32,140 nt of DNA, taken from the NCBI GenBank assembly GCA_913050565.1, contig CAJWZW010000009.1:1-32140 (forward strand), in the 5' to 3' direction. The notes below the pieces were generated by a model. That model did no database searches and was not told the DNA's origin. It was given only the letters and a program-made list of their open reading frames with translations. Shown here piece after piece: positions 1 through 8,391 of this stretch. Within the stretch, counting starts at the first letter, position 1. The number at the start of each line of letters is the position of its first letter. The stretch is from an uncultured Synechococcus sp. GTDB taxonomy: Bacteria > Cyanobacteriota > Cyanobacteriia > PCC-6307 > Cyanobiaceae. Position numbers and translations under genes: made by a program.

Positions 1-178
1 GAATCTCATAACTAGAAGGTCGGAGCAGTTCGCAAAAGTTGAGGCGATCGTGATTTGTCTCGACCTGCTTCACGTGACGACTGTTGATTGACCTTTTCGA
101 GCGACCAGCAAAGAGATCAGGCTGATTTTCATCACCAGTTGAGCTGGCATTGATGACCACCACAGCTTGAAAATTCAA
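1..178 (-). other. possible partial ORF running off the left edge
   Basis: On the minus strand a reading frame stays open from near position 178 to the window edge. The visible part reads LNFQAVVVINASSTGDENQ and continues through residues such as RHVKQVETNHDRLNFCELL, a composition that looks like protein. There is no ATG in the frame; a TTG at 176-178 or GTG codons at 158-163 could serve as starts. The 12-bp palindrome at 160-185 overlaps the proposed start. I recognise no family. It could be the 5' end of a gene outside the window, a decayed gene or a chance open frame. Confidence 0.2.
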
Positions 179-185
179 GCTGTGG
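160..185. repeat. perfect 12-bp inverted repeat, followed by a second small one
   Basis: Arms CCACAGCTTGAA (160-171) and TTCAAGCTGTGG (174-185) are exact reverse complements separated by two A bases. A second inverted repeat, CACCA-TATG-TGGTG, follows at once at 186-199. Neither strand has a T-run after the stem, so it is not a standard intrinsic terminator. It could be an operator for a dimeric regulator or a transcript-end hairpin. It lies about 55 bp upstream of the possible small membrane-protein gene at 241. Confidence 0.6.
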
Positions 186-240
186 CACCATATGTGGTGT
201 AAGCTTGCATTACCAGGCTCTACTGGTGGAGTCTGTGAAA

Positions 241-420
241 ATGGGAAGGGTTAGGGTCCCCTTCCCTACTTTCCTCAAAAAAGCAATGCCCCTGTTGGCA
301 AGGACAATAATTCGGGAGATATTGGTGCAAAGAATTGCCATTTATTTCATTCTCAGCTCAGTTGCTGTCGTTGTCATCAACCTGAGCGATTTCAGTCAGA
401 ACACAACAGCTGTTTTTTAA
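241..420 (+). CDS. small possible membrane protein, unknown
   Basis: This 59-codon frame begins at an ATG with a good Shine-Dalgarno-like GGTGGAG at 225-231, nine bases upstream; a longer version would need a TTG at 205. The product has a basic N-terminal half (MGRVRVPFPTFLKKAM, then RTIIREILVQR) and a hydrophobic stretch around residues 35-53 (IAIYFILSSVAVVVINL) that could cross a membrane once. It ends at TAA 418-420. I recognise no family. It is isolated in the AT-rich region, so its reality rests on the ribosome-binding site and the membrane-like composition only. Confidence 0.35.
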   Translation: MGRVRVPFPTFLKKAMPLLARTIIREILVQRIAIYFILSSVAVVVINLSDFSQNTTAVF

Positions 421-589
421 ATCCCAGGTTTTATAGGAATCCACATTCTTTCTCGATGGATTACCGCATAGGTCAGAACATGCCTCCACTCACCGACAAA
501 ACAAGAGAGAGCATCACACCACAGCCCAGATCCTCAGAATTCAAACCCTGAGCAAGCGGACAAGACAAGTCGTCGAATAGCAATGAACC

Positions 590-793
590 ATGCAAAATTT
601 TAAATTCCGAATTGAGGAACTGAATCCTTTTCAGGAATGGCATCTGCATGACTCAGCCGACAATCAGGAGTTTGCAATTCAACGTGCCCAGGAAATTTGC
701 AGGCAAATCTGCAGACCTGTTCGCATCCTGACGGCACAGAACAAACTCGTCGCACAATTTGAACCTGCAGAACCCAATTCAGAAAGTCAATAA
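590..793 (+). CDS. hypothetical small protein (67 aa)
   Basis: ATG-to-TAA frame of 67 residues with balanced, soluble composition. It has a charged helical middle (EFAIQRAQEICRQICR) followed by PVRILTAQNKLVAQFEP, which resembles a short beta hairpin. The length and the helix-then-strand layout recall short orphan proteins common in marine Synechococcus, but I cannot assign a family. No clear Shine-Dalgarno is visible; another ATG seven bases upstream (583) opens only a very short frame. The neighbouring DNA is AT-rich with no operon partner on the same strand. Two cysteines at residues 37 and 41 (CRQIC) form a CxxxC pair. Confidence 0.5.
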   Translation: MQNFKFRIEELNPFQEWHLHDSADNQEFAIQRAQEICRQICRPVRILTAQNKLVAQFEPAEPNSESQ

Positions 794-810
794 ATCAATC
801 AACACAACAT

Positions 811-1056
811 TCAGAACACATCAGCCATGGAAAATCGCAAGAACTGAACGATTGAGAAAGGATTCAGGATCGACCAGACCTCTCCAAAACCGAGAGATTT
901 GTTGTGGCGGTTGCTTTTCAGCTGATAGTGACGCGCCAGCAGGTCTGCACCGGACTGGATGGTCCTTGGGTCGCTCAAGGAGTCAACGGATGATGCGTAG
1001 TCCGGATCCAGGACGAGAAACCAGCGATCACCGATCAGACCCGATGAACCGGACAT
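811..1056 (-). CDS. hypothetical protein (81 aa), weak
   Basis: Minus-strand ATG frame of 81 residues with plausible protein-like composition (GDRWFLVLDPDY near the N-terminus, ADLLARHYQLKSNRHNK in the middle, hydrophobic FSIVQFLRF at the end). The plus-strand frame over the same bases is Ser/Arg/Thr-rich and looks like a shadow, so the minus strand is preferred. There is no strong ribosome-binding site. A TATTTATA stretch lies about 20-30 bases upstream of the start and could hold a -10 box. It is tail-to-tail with the 67-aa gene, with 17 bp between the stops. No family recognised. Confidence 0.35.
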   Translation of the reverse strand: MSGSSGLIGDRWFLVLDPDYASSVDSLSDPRTIQSGADLLARHYQLKSNRHNKSLGFGEVWSILNPFSIVQFLRFSMADVF

Positions 1057-1348
1057 GGAACAACAGCTCAGCTTTAGGTATAAATACTACAAGACCTGAT
1101 TCATCATTGAGAACGGCCGCCGACAAGTGCAGCTCTCGTCTGCTGTTGACCTGATACTGCAGGGCTGACTCTTGAATCCCGCCCAGACGAAATTAAATTG
1201 GCCACCCCATTCAGCGGGGATCCGAAATTTTCATCCTGGTGAAGATTGCAAGCCTCGAAGGATTTGCAAACACAACCATGATTAAATTAATTTCACCCTA
1301 TTGAGCATCCAATCGACGATCTGGAGTGTGTTCAGGACATGAGCGTTC

Positions 1349-1459
1349 TCAGAGAATTCGGCCGATATAAGCAAAAGCGACGACCATCACCGTGATGGCC
1401 ATCACAATGAAACCAAGACCCAGGGAAACCTCATTCAGTTGGTTGTCACCATCAGGCAT
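1349..1459 (-). CDS. 36-aa single-span membrane protein, unknown
   Basis: A short minus-strand gene runs from ATG (1457-1459) to TGA (1349-1351). The product has an acidic, polar N-terminus (MPDGDNQLNEVS), then a hydrophobic segment of about 20 residues (LGLGFIVMAITVMVVAFAYI), and ends GRIL. This is the layout of the small single-helix proteins that cyanobacteria attach to photosynthetic complexes or transporters. It does not match the PetG, PetL, PetM, PetN, PsbM, PsbN, PsbX or Psb30 sequences I can recall, so no symbol is given. A weak GAAGAG lies just upstream of the start. The call rests on its strongly membrane-like profile. Confidence 0.5.
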   Translation of the reverse strand: MPDGDNQLNEVSLGLGFIVMAITVMVVAFAYIGRIL

Positions 1460-2072
1460 GGACTCTTCACAGACACGTCTCTTCTATCGAACCTTTGCCT
1501 CCAAACGACTCAACATGTTCGATTGACGACAAATCAGCCGTTTAAAACCATGCAAGCCCATTCCTCCATACCACTGCCTCGCCCTCTGGCCACAGCGAGT
1601 GGAGGGTTTGGTGATGGCTTTAGAAGCACTGCCTACCCATTGGTGTGTACGCGCACGCCCAGAAAGTCCTTCTCGCGTCGATGCCGCTGCACTGGCATAA
1701 CCACCGCCGCTATCAGTGCAATTTTGGGTCCAGAAACTTCCGGTGCTGTAGTCGAAACCAGGAATATTCAAAGAGTTCCTGTACCTGCAGATCCTGTATT
1801 GAGAGGTGAGGTGGTACTTGGTTTCACAGGCTGCTTCAGCCCGGAGCGGATTAAGCCACTAAACGCACAACAAGCAGCGCCAGCAGGAGCAAAAACAAGT
1901 CTTTTCACAACGCATTGACCGCTGTTAGCACTTTCCCCGCAACAACGAGGTAAGCACCTCCCCCTTTCGATTGATTGATACAGTTCTCAGAATCGCTTTG
2001 ATACTAAATACTAGAAGCATTGGATTCAATAATACTTTTACGTGATATACGCAGAAAAGGAAAATTATTCAA
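1460..2072. other. gene-poor stretch with no convincing gene
   Basis: About 600 bases without a gene I can support. A plus-strand frame (1439-1918) is rich in Thr, Arg and Ser and looks like a shadow. A minus-strand frame (1484-1771, TTG start) contains the protein-like piece IPGFDYSTGSFWTQNCTD, then degrades into Arg/Ser-rich sequence; it could be a remnant of a lost gene. AT-rich bases at about 1990-2060 include TTGGAT (2021-2026) and TGATAT (2044-2049) spaced 17 bp apart, a possible weak promoter for the zinc-ribbon gene that follows. Confidence 0.4.
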
Positions 2073-2177
2073 ATGAGAGCTTGTACAAAGTGTGGAGGCA
2101 GTCGCTTCAATGACTGGAATGGCTGTATGGATTGCAGGCATGAGAATGAGCGTAGCAAAAAAGAAAAGCTCAAATAA
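2073..2177 (+). CDS. 34-aa zinc-ribbon peptide
   Basis: ATG-to-TAA frame of 34 residues. It carries two CxxC knuckles, CTKC at residues 4-7 and CMDC at 18-21, followed by HENERSKKEKLK, a charged basic tail. Four cysteines in this spacing are expected to bind one zinc ion. The pattern resembles the N-terminal zinc finger of phage-type HNH or endonuclease VII-like homing nucleases, here without a catalytic domain. An AAAAGGAAAA tract lies 9-18 bases upstream of the start. The next frame begins 6 bases after the stop and also encodes CxxC motifs, so the two may form one unit. It is too short for most gene callers and could be a real peptide or the remains of a longer nuclease. Confidence 0.5.
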   Translation: MRACTKCGGSRFNDWNGCMDCRHENERSKKEKLK

Positions 2178-2183
2178 AGGAAA

Positions 2184-2524
2184 ATGGAGGAACATACACA
2201 ACTGCTTAATGGAAATCCCTATTGGCATTTTTGCCGAGATGTTCTGTATGCAATCGTACCTGGGATGAGATTCCAAAAAGGCCCGATCCAAGATATGAAT
2301 ATACGTGGATGAAGGGGCCTATAAGACCGATTTACCACGGAGAAATAGACGACATTTTTAATATTCAGGCGGAATGCTATCAATGCAATTTCAACAAGAA
2401 CGCTGGAAAATTAAAACGTTTGAAATTTTGTAGTCAGACAGTTCTTCGTCAATTCAGTGAACATCGCTTAAATCCTGATTCAGCTCACTCGGAATCCATT
2501 CACACCGATGCTCTAGGGCAATAA
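2184..2524 (+). pseudogene. HNH-like/zinc-binding protein gene with a frameshift at a T5 run
   Basis: An ATG frame starting at 2184, after AAAGGA, reads MEEHTQLLNGNPYWHF and then loses protein character, stopping at 2312. The frame one base back reads LPRCSVCNRTWDEIP onward from 2231 and continues to TAA at 2524, with no ATG of its own (only TTG at 2222 or 2231). The switch falls in five T bases at 2228-2232. A -1 slip or one lost T would give a single protein of about 113 residues. It would carry CSVC, a Pro/Trp-rich linker, then NIQAECYQCNFNKNAGK, which resembles the N-x3/4-CxxCNxxK end of HNH nucleases, although the usual Asp-His is not evident. Options are a recent frameshift mutation, a sequencing error or programmed slippage. 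Confidence 0.5.
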
Positions 2525-2545
2525 AAAACCCGCCTCGTGGCGGGT
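2523..2545 (-). terminator. intrinsic terminator after tRNA-Val
   Basis: Read on the minus strand, ACCCGCC-ACGA-GGCGGGT forms a perfect 7-bp GC-rich stem with a 4-base loop and is followed by TTTTTT. It lies 33 bases beyond the tRNA 3' end, as expected for a tRNA transcript terminator. On the plus strand no T-run follows the stem. Confidence 0.9.
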
Positions 2546-2577
2546 GAGATTTGGCTGAAAAGCCGTGCTGTGACTGA

Positions 2578-2649
2578 TGGGCGATACGGGGATCGAACCT
2601 GTGACAATCTCCTTGTAAGGGAGGTGCTCTACCGCTGAGCTAATCGCCC
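2578..2649 (-). tRNA. tRNA-Val (anticodon UAC)
   Basis: The minus strand reads GGGCGAT, then a D-arm (TAGCTCAGCGGTAGAGC), an anticodon arm with loop CTTACAA giving anticodon TAC, a T-arm with GGTTCGATCC, and the 3' acceptor strand ATCGCCC. The acceptor stem pairs perfectly over 7 bp. The discriminator base is A; CCA is not encoded. The length is 72 nt. UAC reads GUA and, by wobble, other Val codons. The 3' end faces the AT-rich orphan region at 1-2550. Confidence 0.96.
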
Positions 2650-2706
2650 GAGGTGCAGATTCTGCCTCAGCACGGCACTCTGAGCCTGATTGCCGAACGG
2701 TGACCC

Positions 2707-3189
2707 TTGGCGTCGGGCCATCACCATGACCGCGCGACCGTCGGATGGAGCCTTCCCCTCGGGCTGGCGGTGGCATCTCTGCTCGGCCCAGCTGCAGGGG
2801 GCATCGCGTTTGCTGGATTCCTGTTCGGGGGCCTTTGGCTGTCGCCGGACCTCGATACCCGGTCCAACGCTCTGCATCGTTGGGGCCCACTGGGTGGGAT
2901 CTGGTGGCCTTACCGACGGCTCATTCCCCACCGCTCCATCTGGTCCCACGGACCTCTGCTCGGCACCGCGGTCCGCCTGTTGGTGCTTCTGGGCTGGACC
3001 CTGTTGATCAGCAACCTGATCCCGAACACCAGCCCCAACGACGTTCTCAGCGCCCTGCAGTGGGCAATACGGAACCACCCCCAGCAGGGAGCAGCACTGC
3101 TGCTGGGCCTGGAAGCCAGCGTGTGGCTGCACCTGATCCAGGACGGTGATCCCTTGCCGGCGGAATGGACCCGACGCCGACGGCGGTGA
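2707..3189 (+). CDS. DUF2227-type putative metal-binding membrane protein
   Basis: This 160-aa protein begins MASGHHHDRAT, matching the SGxxHDR start typical of DUF2227 (a cyanobacterial and archaeal family related to the YdjM metal-dependent membrane hydrolases). Hydrophobic segments lie at about residues 17-45 and 85-105. Conserved polar motifs sit between and after them: SPDLDT (46-51), HRW (57-59), PHRSIWSHGP (74-83) and HLIQD (142-146). These His/Asp residues are candidate metal ligands. The frame has a TGA two codons before the TTG at 2707, so TTG is the only reasonable start. It ends in a basic RRRRR tail, 31 bp before mazG on the same strand. The biochemical role is unknown. Confidence 0.8.
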   Translation: MASGHHHDRATVGWSLPLGLAVASLLGPAAGGIAFAGFLFGGLWLSPDLDTRSNALHRWGPLGGIWWPYRRLIPHRSIWSHGPLLGTAVRLLVLLGWTLLISNLIPNTSPNDVLSALQWAIRNHPQQGAALLLGLEASVWLHLIQDGDPLPAEWTRRRRR

Positions 3190-3220
3190 GAGGGTGGGCG
3201 CGCGCGCAGCCAGACGAACG

Positions 3221-4012
3221 ATGGACACCAGCTCCTCTGACGCTCTGCAGGAACTCATCCACGTTGTGGCCCAGCTGCGGGATCCGGAGGGAGGCTGTCC
3301 CTGGGATCTGGAACAGACCCATTCCTCATTGGTGCCTTACGTGCTGGAGGAAGCCCATGAAGTGGCGGATGCAATCCGTCATGGCAATGACGCAGATCTG
3401 AAGGAGGAACTGGGAGATCTGCTGCTGCAGGTGGTGCTTCATGCCCGGATCGCCAGCGAGGGGAAGCGCTTCGATCTCACAGCTGTGATTCGCACGATCA
3501 GCACCAAGCTGATGCGCCGACATCCCCACGTATTCGGCGGCGAGCCGCGCAGCTGGGAGGAGATCAAAGCCGAGGAGAACGCTGATCGGGACACCGGCTC
3601 CAGCAGTCCGCTGAGTGATCAGCTGGCGAAAAAGGTCCGTGGTCTGTCTGCCCTGGCCGGAGCGATGATGATCTCCAAAACAGCCGCAAAGGCTGGCTTC
3701 GAGTGGGATGACATCTCCGGCGTCTGGGACAAGGTGAATGAGGAGCTCGAGGAATTGAAGGAAGCGGTGGCCAGCGGTGACAAAGCCCATGCCCAGGAGG
3801 AGCTGGGGGATGTTCTCTTCACCCTGGTGAATGTGGCCCGCTGGTGCGACCTCGAACCGGAGGAAGGCCTGGCCGGAACCAACCGTCGCTTTCTCGACCG
3901 CTTTTCACGCGTGGAGGCAGCTCTCAACGGCGACCTTCAGGGGCGCAGCATCCAGGATCTGGAACGCCTGTGGCAGCAGGCCAAGCAGGCCATCCGCTCC
4001 GAACAGGACTGA
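3221..4012 (+). CDS. mazG: nucleoside triphosphate pyrophosphohydrolase MazG
   Basis: 263 aa, the length of full two-domain MazG. It hydrolyses (d)NTPs to NMP and pyrophosphate, acting as house-cleaning of abnormal nucleotides and, in E. coli, lowering ppGpp. The N-terminal domain holds CPWDLEQTH (26-34), LEEAHEVADAI (42-52) and KEELGDLLLQV (61-71); the second domain has EELEELKEA (174-182) and QEELGDVLF (192-200). Both acidic metal-binding sets (ExxE, ELGD) are intact. The ATG at 3221 was chosen because the protein then begins just before the conserved LRDPEGGCPWD; the frame stays open upstream, overlapping the previous gene. It is convergent with arfB, 28 bp apart. Confidence 0.95.
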   Translation: MDTSSSDALQELIHVVAQLRDPEGGCPWDLEQTHSSLVPYVLEEAHEVADAIRHGNDADLKEELGDLLLQVVLHARIASEGKRFDLTAVIRTISTKLMRRHPHVFGGEPRSWEEIKAEENADRDTGSSSPLSDQLAKKVRGLSALAGAMMISKTAAKAGFEWDDISGVWDKVNEELEELKEAVASGDKAHAQEELGDVLFTLVNVARWCDLEPEEGLAGTNRRFLDRFSRVEAALNGDLQGRSIQDLERLWQQAKQAIRSEQD

Positions 4013-4040
4013 ATTCCCCTGCTGAGGCGTTCTGGTGCCT

Positions 4041-4472
4041 TCAGTCATCCAGGCCGGGTCGGCTGCGCCGCTGCTTTTTGATCGCACCACGTTGCTTCTT
4101 GCTCTCCACCCGGCGCCTCTGGGAGCTGCGTGTCGGCCTGGTGGCCTTGCGGGAGGGTGGCGGTGGCTGAATCCCCTCCCGGATCAACGCCGCAAGCCGT
4201 CGCAGAGCGATCTGGCGATTCAGGTACTGAGATCGCTCCTCCGAAACGGAGACCACCAGGCAGCCGTTCACCAACCGGGCCCGATGGCTCTCCAGCAGCC
4301 GCTGCTGACGGAAAGGACCCAGGGCATCGGACTCGATCACCGACCAGGTCAACCGCACGGCGGATTCAACCTTGTTGACGTTCTGACCACCGGCTCCACT
4401 TGAACGACAAAACAACCACTGGAGCTCAGATGCAGGAATCGTCAGGCGGGCACTGATCACCAGATCCTGCAT
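4041..4472 (-). CDS. arfB: alternative ribosome-rescue factor ArfB (peptidyl-tRNA hydrolase, YaeJ type)
   Basis: 143 aa with the release-factor catalytic motif GGQ at residues 28-30 inside SSGAGGQNVNK, followed by VESAVRLTW, the hallmark of ArfB/YaeJ. ArfB enters ribosomes stalled without a stop codon and hydrolyses peptidyl-tRNA. The expected basic C-terminal tail that occupies the empty mRNA channel is present (RKATRPTRSSQRRR, KKQRGAIKKQRRSRP). It has no codon-recognition domain, which separates it from RF1 and RF2. It starts at ATG 4470-4472. The next gene upstream on the same strand stops at 4482, only 9 bp away, so the two may be co-transcribed. Confidence 0.93.
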   Translation of the reverse strand: MQDLVISARLTIPASELQWLFCRSSGAGGQNVNKVESAVRLTWSVIESDALGPFRQQRLLESHRARLVNGCLVVSVSEERSQYLNRQIALRRLAALIREGIQPPPPSRKATRPTRSSQRRRVESKKQRGAIKKQRRSRPGLDD

Positions 4473-4481
4473 GCAGAAGCA

Positions 4482-4697
4482 CTAGACAAAGCGATGGTGC
4501 ACATCCTCCCGGCAGCGCATCAGAAACATCACTTCCGCAGTGTCGGTCAGCAACAGATGGGTCTGTTCATCGGCGGCCGATCGATAGCTCAGAACCTCCA
4601 ATCCCTCCGGCTGGTGATCGCTGAACATCACCTGACCATCGCGAAGGACATATCGGTTCTGCACGACAAGCGAGGCCACTGAACGCGTTCTATTCAT
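4482..4697 (-). CDS. hypothetical small protein (71 aa) upstream of arfB
   Basis: Starting at the ATG at 4695-4697 the product is MNRTRSVASLVVQNRYVLRDG and on to HHRFV, 71 residues. A longer frame back to 4745 exists, but its extra 16 residues look like shadow. The composition alternates strands and turns (VVQNRYVLRDGQVMFSD, GLEVLSYRS, HLLLTDTAEVMFLMRC), suggesting a small beta-rich soluble fold. I do not recognise the family. It sits head-to-head with speE (91 bp between the starts) and 9 bp before arfB on the same strand. Confidence 0.65.
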   Translation of the reverse strand: MNRTRSVASLVVQNRYVLRDGQVMFSDHQPEGLEVLSYRSAADEQTHLLLTDTAEVMFLMRCREDVHHRFV

Positions 4698-4758
4698 GCC
4701 ACCAGTCCACGAAGCGATTGTGATCAAACCGGCATCAGCCGGCACTCCAAGGAGTTAG

Positions 4759-6485
<1,727 letters not shown>

Positions 6486-6914
6486 TCAGTACACATGGCG
6501 TGCATCTGCCCGCTGCTGTCGCAGCCGACGGTGCTGCTGCGCGATCAGATCCACAACAAGGGTTGGATGCCGGTGGATCAGGGTCAGGAACCCATTGCGG
6601 TCAAGCCGGATCAGGGCGAGTGGTGTCAAGGCCTTCGCATCCCGGCTGTGGCGCTGATCCGGGGACACCAGATCCTCGTAGAAGAACAGTTCCCCGATGC
6701 CGTAACGGACGCGGGAACCTGGACCACCCTCCAGCTCCACCAGCCCCTGTTCCACGACGTAGATGGCATCAACACAATCTCCTCGCCGGAACACCGGAGC
6801 ACCGGTTGGCAGGGTCAGGCGATCGATCTCCCGCTGTTCGCTGATCAACGCCAGCGGTGTCTTGGGATGGGTGGCCGCGTTCACACGCCGTGGACGTTCA
6901 TGGGATGTCAACAA
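6486..6914 (-). CDS. stand-alone cyclic-nucleotide-binding-type (Crp/Fnr N-domain) protein
   Basis: A protein of up to 142 aa showing one cNMP-binding beta-roll: LPTGAPVFRRGDCVDAIYVV, QGLVELEGG, then YGIGELFFYEDLV, SRDAKAL and LIRLDRNGF. The final helix (HPTLVVDLIAQQHRRLRQQ) corresponds to the dimerisation helix of Crp. The protein stops there, with no helix-turn-helix. GEL and R-D-A sit where Crp-like proteins bind the cyclic phosphate, but ligand binding is not certain. The start is unclear: TTG at 6912 abuts the upstream gene's stop, and a GTG at 6882 is an alternative. It probably forms an operon with the Cys-rich gene. Its stop directly abuts the speB stop (convergent, no gap). Confidence 0.82.
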   Translation of the reverse strand: MLTSHERPRRVNAATHPKTPLALISEQREIDRLTLPTGAPVFRRGDCVDAIYVVEQGLVELEGGPGSRVRYGIGELFFYEDLVSPDQRHSRDAKALTPLALIRLDRNGFLTLIHRHPTLVVDLIAQQHRRLRQQRADARHVY

Positions 6915-7178
6915 TCACCCGATGTCGCTCGAATGATTGCCCACCAGAGCACGATCCAGCTCCAGTTGCTGCTCGCGGTCACGGCCCTCCAGCCCGTTCA
7001 GGGACGGCAACTCCGGCGAGCAGGGAGTCCAGTGGTGACAGACCACCAGCCCGGCGAACTCTGGATGCACCTCCAACCGACGCAGACGACACCAGCCCAG
7101 GGTTCGCCCGTCACTTGAGCAGTGCTGACAACTGCGGCAGTTACGCCTGGAGCTCAAGGTCACGGGTCCGAAGTGCAT
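6915..7178 (-). CDS. Cys/His-rich small protein (87 aa), unknown
   Basis: The ATG at 7176-7178 is chosen over the adjacent TTG at 7179. The product begins MHFGPVTLSSRRNCRSCQHC and continues with GRTLGWCRLRRLEVHPEF and VVCHHWTPCSPE. Six cysteines and several histidines (CRSCQHC, WC, VCHHW, PC) in the first half suggest a zinc- or Fe-S-binding knuckle. The C-terminal half is acidic and charged (EGRDREQQLELDRALVG). I recognise no named family. Its stop lies directly before the cNMP-binding gene, so the two are probably transcribed together. It is divergent from gcvT, 109 bp apart. Confidence 0.7.
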   Translation of the reverse strand: MHFGPVTLSSRRNCRSCQHCSSDGRTLGWCRLRRLEVHPEFAGLVVCHHWTPCSPELPSLNGLEGRDREQQLELDRALVGNHSSDIG

Positions 7179-7287
7179 CAACGCTAGTGACGGTCTGAGA
7201 AATGGACCAGGCCTTCAGACCAATCTCCGGGTTCGCTTCCACTTGCTGAAGACCTCCATAAGAATGCGATTCGCCGCATCGAAACGG

Positions 7288-8391
7288 ATGTCTCTGCAGT
7301 GCACGCCGCTTCATCAGCTCTGCCGAGACAGCGGAGGACGGATGGTGCCTTTCGCCGGCTGGGAGATGCCGGTGCAGTTCAGCGGTCTGGTTGAGGAGCA
7401 CAGGGCCGTGCGCGAACAACTGGGGATGTTCGACATCTCCCACATGGGCGTGCTGCGGCTGGAAGGTCCCGATCCCAAATCGGCTCTGCAGCAGCTGGTG
7501 CCCAGCGACCTTCACCGCATCGGGCCTGGAGAAGCGAGTTACACGGTGTTGCTGAACGAATCCGGCGGAATCCGAGACGATCTGATTGTTTACGACTGCG
7601 GCTCGATCGATGCCGAGCGCGGAGCCCTTGTCCTGGTGATCAACGCAGCCTGTGCCGACAGCGACACCGACTGGATCCGTCAGCGGATGGAGCCGTCCGG
7701 GCTGACGGTGACCGATATCAAAAACAATGGCGTCCTGCTGGCGCTGCAGGGACCGAAGGCCATGTCCATGCTGGAGCAGCTGAGCGGTGAAGACCTCAGC
7801 GGGCTGCCCCGCTTCGGTCATCGGATGCTTTCGCTTCCTGGGCTGAGAGAACCCGTGTTCACCGCCCGCACCGGATACACCGGTGAAGACGGTGCCGAGT
7901 TGCTGCTCACGGCCGACGATGGCCGGAGGCTCTGGACTCAGCTCCTGAACCGCGGGGTGACACCCTGTGGCCTCGGTGCGCGGGACACCCTGCGCCTGGA
8001 AGCCGCAATGCACCTCTACGGCCAGGATATGGATGCCGATACCAACCCTTTCGAGGCGGGCCTCGGCTGGCTGGTGCATCTGGAAATTCCTGCGGATTTC
8101 GTCGGTCGGCAGGCCCTCGAGCGGGCTGCCGAAACCGGACCAGCCAAACGACTCGTTGGCCTGAAACTCCAGGGCCGCGCCATCGCCCGGCACAACTACC
8201 CGGTGCTGCATGAAGGCACGGAGGTGGGCATCGTCACCAGTGGCACCTGGTCGCCGACGCTCGAGGAAGGCATCGCCCTGGCCTACGTGCCGCCGAACCT
8301 GGCCAAGCCCGGAACTGAGCTGAGCGTGGAGATCCGCGGCAAATCACAACCGGCAACCGTGGTGCGACGCCCCTTCTACAAACGCCCATGA
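7288..8391 (+). CDS. gcvT: aminomethyltransferase, glycine cleavage system T protein
   Basis: 367 aa. GcvT takes the aminomethyl group from lipoylated H protein to tetrahydrofolate, releasing ammonia. In this group it supports photorespiratory glycine turnover and one-carbon supply. The N-terminus [20 protein letters not shown] followed by [10 protein letters not shown] and MFDISHMG is the standard T-protein start, which decides the ATG at 7288 over the longer open frame. YTGEDGAEL and [10 protein letters not shown] follow, and [19 protein letters not shown] marks the C-terminal barrel. No glycine riboswitch is evident in the 109 bp upstream. gcvH and gcvP are not in the window. aspS follows 49 bp later. 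Confidence 0.95.

Follow-up and report, generated by a model that had tools for sequence, protein, structure and literature searches.

A very probable pseudogene of a zinc-ribbon and HNH endonuclease gene, broken upstream of a chance T5 run, in an uncultured Synechococcus

Positions 2073-2524 of the window (the whole 32,140-nucleotide stretch of DNA analyzed here, from an uncultured Synechococcus sp.) are very probably a pseudogene of a horizontally acquired zinc-ribbon and HNH endonuclease gene. The gene would have been broken in its linker and by a nonsense codon, with loss of its catalytic histidine. An earlier note, made from the sequence alone, had described an HNH-like gene at 2184-2524 interrupted by a frameshift at a T5 run. 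By homology, the window copy spans about 2073-2419, in a frame that stays open to 2524. The earlier reading is partly supported, as it had seen a real gene remnant but misplaced the break. Among the options it had offered, that of a pseudogene held up, and its HNH assignment is supported as well. The case for a dead gene is carried by the frame shift, a separate stop codon, and the loss of the histidine.

As a single query, the 100-residue frame of the HNH half gave no confirmed relative in viral or genome contigs. The fused reading matched a stretch of an Azospirillum brasilense plasmid (E = 7e-9, 44%), which is one open frame encoding a zinc ribbon, a linker, and an HNH domain. This intact zinc-ribbon HNH gene (NZ_CP059450.1, 272487-272894; L051, 2806-3213) has no listed feature in that collection. 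We then used a two-row alignment of the window and Azospirillum sequences as the query, which returned 4 viral and 14 genome contigs. These 18 further relatives come from proteobacteria, Mucilaginibacter, Dyadobacter, a Bryobacterales MAG, three archaeal records, and the 4 viral contigs. Fourteen of the 19 relatives are open through ribbon and HNH domain in one frame and, drawn from viral contigs, bacteria, and archaea, make up profile A2. The other five are damaged or truncated and were left out of A2: two in-frame stops interrupt L063, the frame changes in L065, and L067 has a stop and has lost most of its ribbon, while L069 (restored in A3 and A4) keeps only the end of its ribbon and the middle of L070 is replaced. 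Scanning the viral contigs again with A2 brought up 8 loci, made up of the 4 contigs already known and 4 partial ones (L104-L107, 33 to 36% over the HNH side), and these partial loci were excluded from the 19 relatives and from all counts.

Several weaker matches were not taken further. Phage matches to the 100-residue frame were of HNH type only (best E of 1.0), the longer ribbon-to-HNH reading brought no improvement (best E of 1), and the ribbon alone matched weakly (E of 1 or more). The Azospirillum protein had matches in 541 phage records (best E of 2e-4 among the matches listed) and in 57 plasmid records, where, among the matches listed, all but the protein itself were at 3e-3 or weaker. 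Where annotated, these were mostly HNH by name among the matches listed, and none was taken as a row.

The A2 genes share a layout of an N-terminal zinc ribbon (two Cys pairs), a linker that is always 14 residues long (14/14), and a C-terminal HNH domain, with the motif [NA].G.HT..[EQ][WF] between linker and HNH core. In the first half of the ribbon, the three archaeal rows carry C.K.GH in place of the CxxC of the other rows. The window copy is 53 to 60% identical to five rows, L053-L056 and L068 (113 columns; four are viral contigs), and 35 to 48% identical to the other nine (102 to 113 columns), so that its best relative stands at 60%. With the five closest rows it shares a Gly before the catalytic position and the segment AECYQCNF. 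The neighbors of the relatives vary. L053 has a DUF6441 gene one open reading frame (ORF) off on one side and a phage tail tube gene one ORF off on the other, L057 adjoins a TSCPD gene and ribonucleotide reductase, L064 adjoins a helicase with a PLD domain, and L068 lies about 1.5 kb from a serine recombinase. In Comamonadaceae and Polaromonas, the related HNH copies of L058 and L063 (4001-4345 in each) stand at nearly equal distance from a tRNA. With two in-frame stops in L063 and Gln for the histidine in L058, this looks like parallel decay at one site.

Every segment of the A2 layout was found in order in 2073-2419 of the window, across two frames, and A2 scored 106.8 bits over 2075-2410 (Table 1). 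The ribbon lies in frame 0, while linker and HNH domain lie in frame 2, where homology starts at about 2177 and ends at about 2419; the tail beyond is without a match. One continuous reading frame, a trait of the A2 family, is absent. Because of the frame change and the nonsense codon, we regard the window copy as most probably a pseudogene of this family and no working member. Frame 2 retains all the structural Cys pairs and the Asn of N..C..CN..K, and the H of the HT motif is Y. As the earlier note had said, the downstream frame is open to its TAA at 2522-2524 and carries two CxxC pairs and the N..C..CN..K motif. Its statement that this frame has no start is true for ATG only, since a TTG start occurs at 2222 in a frame open from 2210.

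Table 1. Features at and around the remnant gene, in window coordinates
Feature	Position	Strand	Remarks
N-terminal zinc-ribbon part and linker start, CTKCGGSRF..W..CMDC	2073..2174	+	Frame 0; closing stop TAA 2175-2177; aligns with the relatives' ribbon (A2)
A-rich interval of reading-frame change	2159..2177	+	Frameshift-aware alignment, 6 runs; linker lengths
Linker remnant KENGGTYTTA	2177..2206	+	Frame 2; matches ..NGG.HT.. of relatives
In-frame nonsense codon TAA	2207..2209	+	Glu (10) or Gln (4) in 14/14 relatives
HNH half	2210..2521	+	Frame 2; stop TAA 2522-2524; PF01844 E 0.003; A2 profile; model
CCT (Pro) in the catalytic-His column	2318..2320	+	His in 13/14 relatives, Gln in L058
ORF A, out-of-frame overlap, outside the gene proper	2184..2312	+	Score -23.0 against the family profile
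T5 run	2228..2232	+	Within the continuous HNH frame; loop of a small hairpin 2222-2237; frame change elsewhere
Terminator-like hairpin downstream of tRNA-Val	2528..2545	-	L038 homology starts at 2518
tRNA-Val (TAC)	2578..2649	-	Related loci mostly start homology at its 3' end

We located the break by frameshift-aware alignment of window positions 2040-2560 to the relatives' profile, with a frame change allowed anywhere at a cost. The alignment was run six times, with two profiles (5 rows and 14 rows) and three penalty sets for each. All six runs gave one frame change in 2159-2177, the stop at 2207-2209, and no event at the T5. The ribbon began at 2073 (2067 with the 14-row profile), and the change fell at 2159-2162 with the 5-row profile and at 2171-2177 with the 14-row profile. 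After the stop, the HNH domain aligned through to 2419 with no additional event. Between CMDC and NGG, the window has 47 nt, compared to 42 nt (14 codons) in all 14 relatives.

The earlier note had claimed that two half-real frames join exactly at TTTTT. That claim fails: in the HNH frame, the residues encoded by 2183-2227 (NGGTYTTA-stop-WKSLLA) scored 35.1 against the family columns, a value reached by 0 of 20,000 shuffles, whereas the ORF A frame scored -23.0 in the same columns, and when its own residues were shuffled, 18,482 of 20,000 shuffles did as well or better. Over 13 offsets, the best score of the ORF A frame was -2.3. Frame-2 homology starts 50 bases before the T5 and crosses it unbroken. 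Taken together, the alignment runs, the profile scores, and the CMDC-to-NGG spacing place the length change in the A-rich linker, upstream of the entire ORF A. Judging from these alignments, the T5 frameshift is no real feature of the gene, and the break lies further upstream. As no close orthologue is available in an unbroken state, the alignments do not settle the order of the lesions or the precise base at which the frame changes.

Much of what had been said about the T5 region is locally accurate. The T5 is present, as is an ATG at 2184 with AAAGGA close upstream; the frame from this ATG ends at a TGA at 2310-2312 after 42 codons, and the arithmetic by which a -1 slip on the TTT at 2229-2231 would yield 113 residues is right. 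We nevertheless give almost no credence to programmed -1 ribosomal frameshifting on the T5 as the source of a 113-residue HNH protein. The TTT can re-pair at -1 behind a plausible start, and the product would bypass the TAA at 2207, as no stop interrupts the HNH frame from 2210 onward to its end. However, the ORF A peptide misfits the profile of the 14 relatives where the other frame fits, and the downstream frame is homologous to the relatives on either side of the T run. A slip could supply neither the conserved linker nor the histidine; its product would be an unrelated 16-residue start joined to an HNH domain that has no ribbon and no catalytic His. The relatives show no similarity to those 16 residues, one half of a joint observation that the earlier note had named as speaking against its reading; the other half, the same T5 in relatives, was not seen. 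Within the W..C stretch, a T5 is absent from 13 of the 14 relatives, and the T run of L064 sits at a different codon; the relatives pass through the equivalent position in one frame.

Under a first-order Markov model of 2000-2524, an A5 or T5 run in 100 nt has a probability of 0.46, and two occur in the 100 nt shared by the two frames (2210-2309), the T5 at 2228 and an A5 at 2275. Folding of RNA 2215-2320, computed without pseudoknots, gave a z score of -1.17, only slightly better than shuffled sequence, with 27 of 200 shuffles as good. Among the abstract openings returned by a literature search, we found no paper on programmed frameshifting with HNH and none on an HNH pseudogene with a frameshift. 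We conclude that the T5 and ORF A are bystanders and that the T5 is a chance feature within a dead gene.

The remnant carries damage beyond the frame change. The stop at 2207-2209 falls in a column where no relative has one, and Pro replaces the His of the first beta strand, which we take to be the catalytic residue of an HNH endonuclease. The loss of His alone is no proof of gene death, since L058 also has no His and is otherwise open. The Gly before this position is no lesion, as it is found in the five closest rows. Of the 23 columns that never vary among the 14 rows, 5 are broken in the window copy, although 2 of these 5 lie in the linker close to the shift, a part of uncertain alignment. 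When the unbroken rows were left out one at a time, each broke 0 to 2 of 23 to 25 invariant columns. When only the five closest rows are considered, 18 of 73 columns are broken in the window copy (one being the stop and one a gap). The contrast here is modest because L053, when left out in turn, breaks 12 of 85; the other four break 0 to 5.

These lesions bear on two further readings. An intact gene misread through sequencing or assembly error would be conceivable in a fragmented assembly (127 contigs, 87% complete) with a shift in an A-rich stretch, where indel errors occur. The earlier note had listed such an error as an option, but a single error cannot explain the shift, the separate stop codon, and the loss of the catalytic His, nor the loss of 5 of 23 invariant residues, and we consider this reading extremely unlikely. 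The pieces might instead still be expressed separately, as a 34-residue ribbon peptide (2073-2177) and a 100-residue protein from the TTG at 2222, forming a DNA-binding, noncutting remnant. The TTG is a possible start, and the HNH half is still modeled with confidence, with block-mean pLDDT values of 80 to 95 in residues 1 to 60. Against this stand the conserved residues that were lost and the lack of any orthologue in 400 family genomes, where the 100-residue frame matched only the window's own genome (1/400); for the latter reason no sign of selection can be read. Separate expression is very unlikely in our judgment. We would likewise be much surprised if the 100-residue HNH half were still made and kept as a noncutting DNA-binding protein, for example to shield an old target site. 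If that were true, the loss of His would have been selected and would not be decay.

In its family, the remnant has no orthologue among the 400 genomes searched. At an E value of 0.001 or less, A2 matched 216/400 family genomes and 193/386 phylum genomes, with the HNH core alone in most of the matches listed. The window scored 106.8 bits against 36.7 for the next match in the family (G165) and 45.8 in the phylum (G425). We inspected five of these A2-matched places. In three (G001, G425, and G443), a ribbon-like part precedes the HNH domain, which makes them distant cousins; the other two (G556 and G165) are larger HNH proteins. No A2-matched place was counted as an orthologue, those beyond the five being judged by score and span only. 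In its own genome, outside the remnant, the next A2 match was an HNH core on contig C4 (E = 0.0014). Gene content suggests that the host is a marine picocyanobacterium.

The segment is AT-rich, with a G+C content of 0.384 in 2001-2500 compared to 0.58 to 0.67 in the intervals that follow, from 2501 to 8000. We compared the region with 11 loci from 33 other genomes of the genus: homology begins at 2576-2577 in 10 of them and at 2518 in L038. Another genome, G016, has a match from about 2519 (72%). Left of tRNA-Val, over positions 1-2577, homology to 10 of the 11 related loci ends at the tRNA 3' end. Two of these loci (L040 and L042) share left-flank ORFs with each other, which for them puts the change on the window's side. 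G017 shares parts of 186-1533 (68 and 76% DNA identity) without any match to the HNH segment. It does not amount to a clean empty site, because the 8 kb examined from it carry no tRNA. Seven window ORFs of 60 residues or more in 1-2291 gave no PHROG match. No direct repeat of the tRNA end was found in 1-2800, where direct repeats of at least 14 nt amounted to three short imperfect pairs not involving the tRNA. A homing endonuclease in an intron was rejected, with no Rfam intron at gathering score in window positions 1-4000 or in the 19 relative loci. A one-off insertion beside the tRNA would fit, but with neither a phage gene nor a repeat to mark an element, mobile DNA is its presumed route.

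Two other features of the left flank were recorded. ORFs of 67 and 81 residues (590-793 on the plus strand and 811-1056 on the minus strand) have clear counterparts in the same order in another genome (L121, 3506-3718 and 3742-3990). Neither has a Pfam or PHROG match, and they are probably real, unnamed small genes. Positions 11-95 match the first 85 bases of another contig of this genome, C107, on the minus strand (94% identity), which could be either a repeat or a broken contig join.

We propose that the ancestor was one continuous gene for a small zinc-ribbon and HNH endonuclease, like those found as free-standing genes in phages and other mobile DNA. In the A-rich stretch at 2159-2177, a change in length would have put ribbon and HNH half in different frames, with a stop after the ribbon. 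A separate event would have given the nonsense codon at 2207-2209, and the catalytic His would have become Pro. The most likely course is that mobile DNA brought the gene in beside tRNA-Val and that it then decayed without selection. The pseudogene is an ordinary dead gene of little importance by itself. It does illustrate that a chance T5 in a two-frame overlap of a dead gene can yield a plausible "slippery-site" story, and that relatives, when found, locate the break elsewhere. Small zinc-ribbon HNH genes are scattered over viral contigs, bacteria, and archaea, and the damage or truncation seen in 5 of 19 relatives would fit short-lived selfish genes.

The HNH identity that had been assigned to the remnant is weak for the window alone. 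Its HNH frame matched PF01844 (HNH endonuclease) at an E value of 0.003, yet with 18.1 bits it stays below the gathering score of 21.4. Four PHROG HNH families matched at 0.0045 to 0.033, none reaching 0.001. A search of NCBIfam gave only matches far below cutoff, the window frame had chance matches only among solved structures, and PHROG 10853, with weak matches in 17/201 genomes (E of 7e-4 to 0.1), was not used. All 14 unbroken relatives match PF01844 at an E value of 0.001 or less, and each of PHROG 1035 ("endonuclease VII") and PHROGs 8660, 6050, and 589 ("HNH endonuclease") is matched by all 14 at the same threshold. The PHROG 1035 match spans residues 5 to 116 of L053, from ribbon to HNH, and this family is not among the four that the window HNH frame matched.

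Models of L053 (mean pLDDT 79.4, pTM 0.53) and of the window HNH half (mean pLDDT 73.9, pTM 0.54) both show an HNH core of two strands and a helix. Fold searches with these models gave no match passing an E value of 0.001. The top fold match for both L053 (E = 5.5e-3) and the window HNH half (E = 1.6e-2) was the Mn-dependent Gme HNH nicking endonuclease of Geobacter metallireducens (PDB 4h9d), which also ranks first among the sequence matches to the family profile (E = 6.9e-4). Judging from fold and motif, the most likely activity of the intact relatives is DNA binding with cutting or nicking at a beta-beta-alpha-metal HNH site; with the neighbors considered as well, a free-standing selfish life style is suggested. 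Compared to 4h9d, the window copy has no catalytic His. The viral-contig gene of L053 (2983-3357, IMG/VR UViG_2751185828_000004) is like the window copy in its ribbon spacing, in the KG..YHG and NIQAECYQCNF segments, and in its identity of 60.2% over 113 columns. Unlike the window copy, it has one open frame, the His, and the 14-residue linker, and it sits among phage structural genes, whereas the window copy lies beside tRNA-Val.
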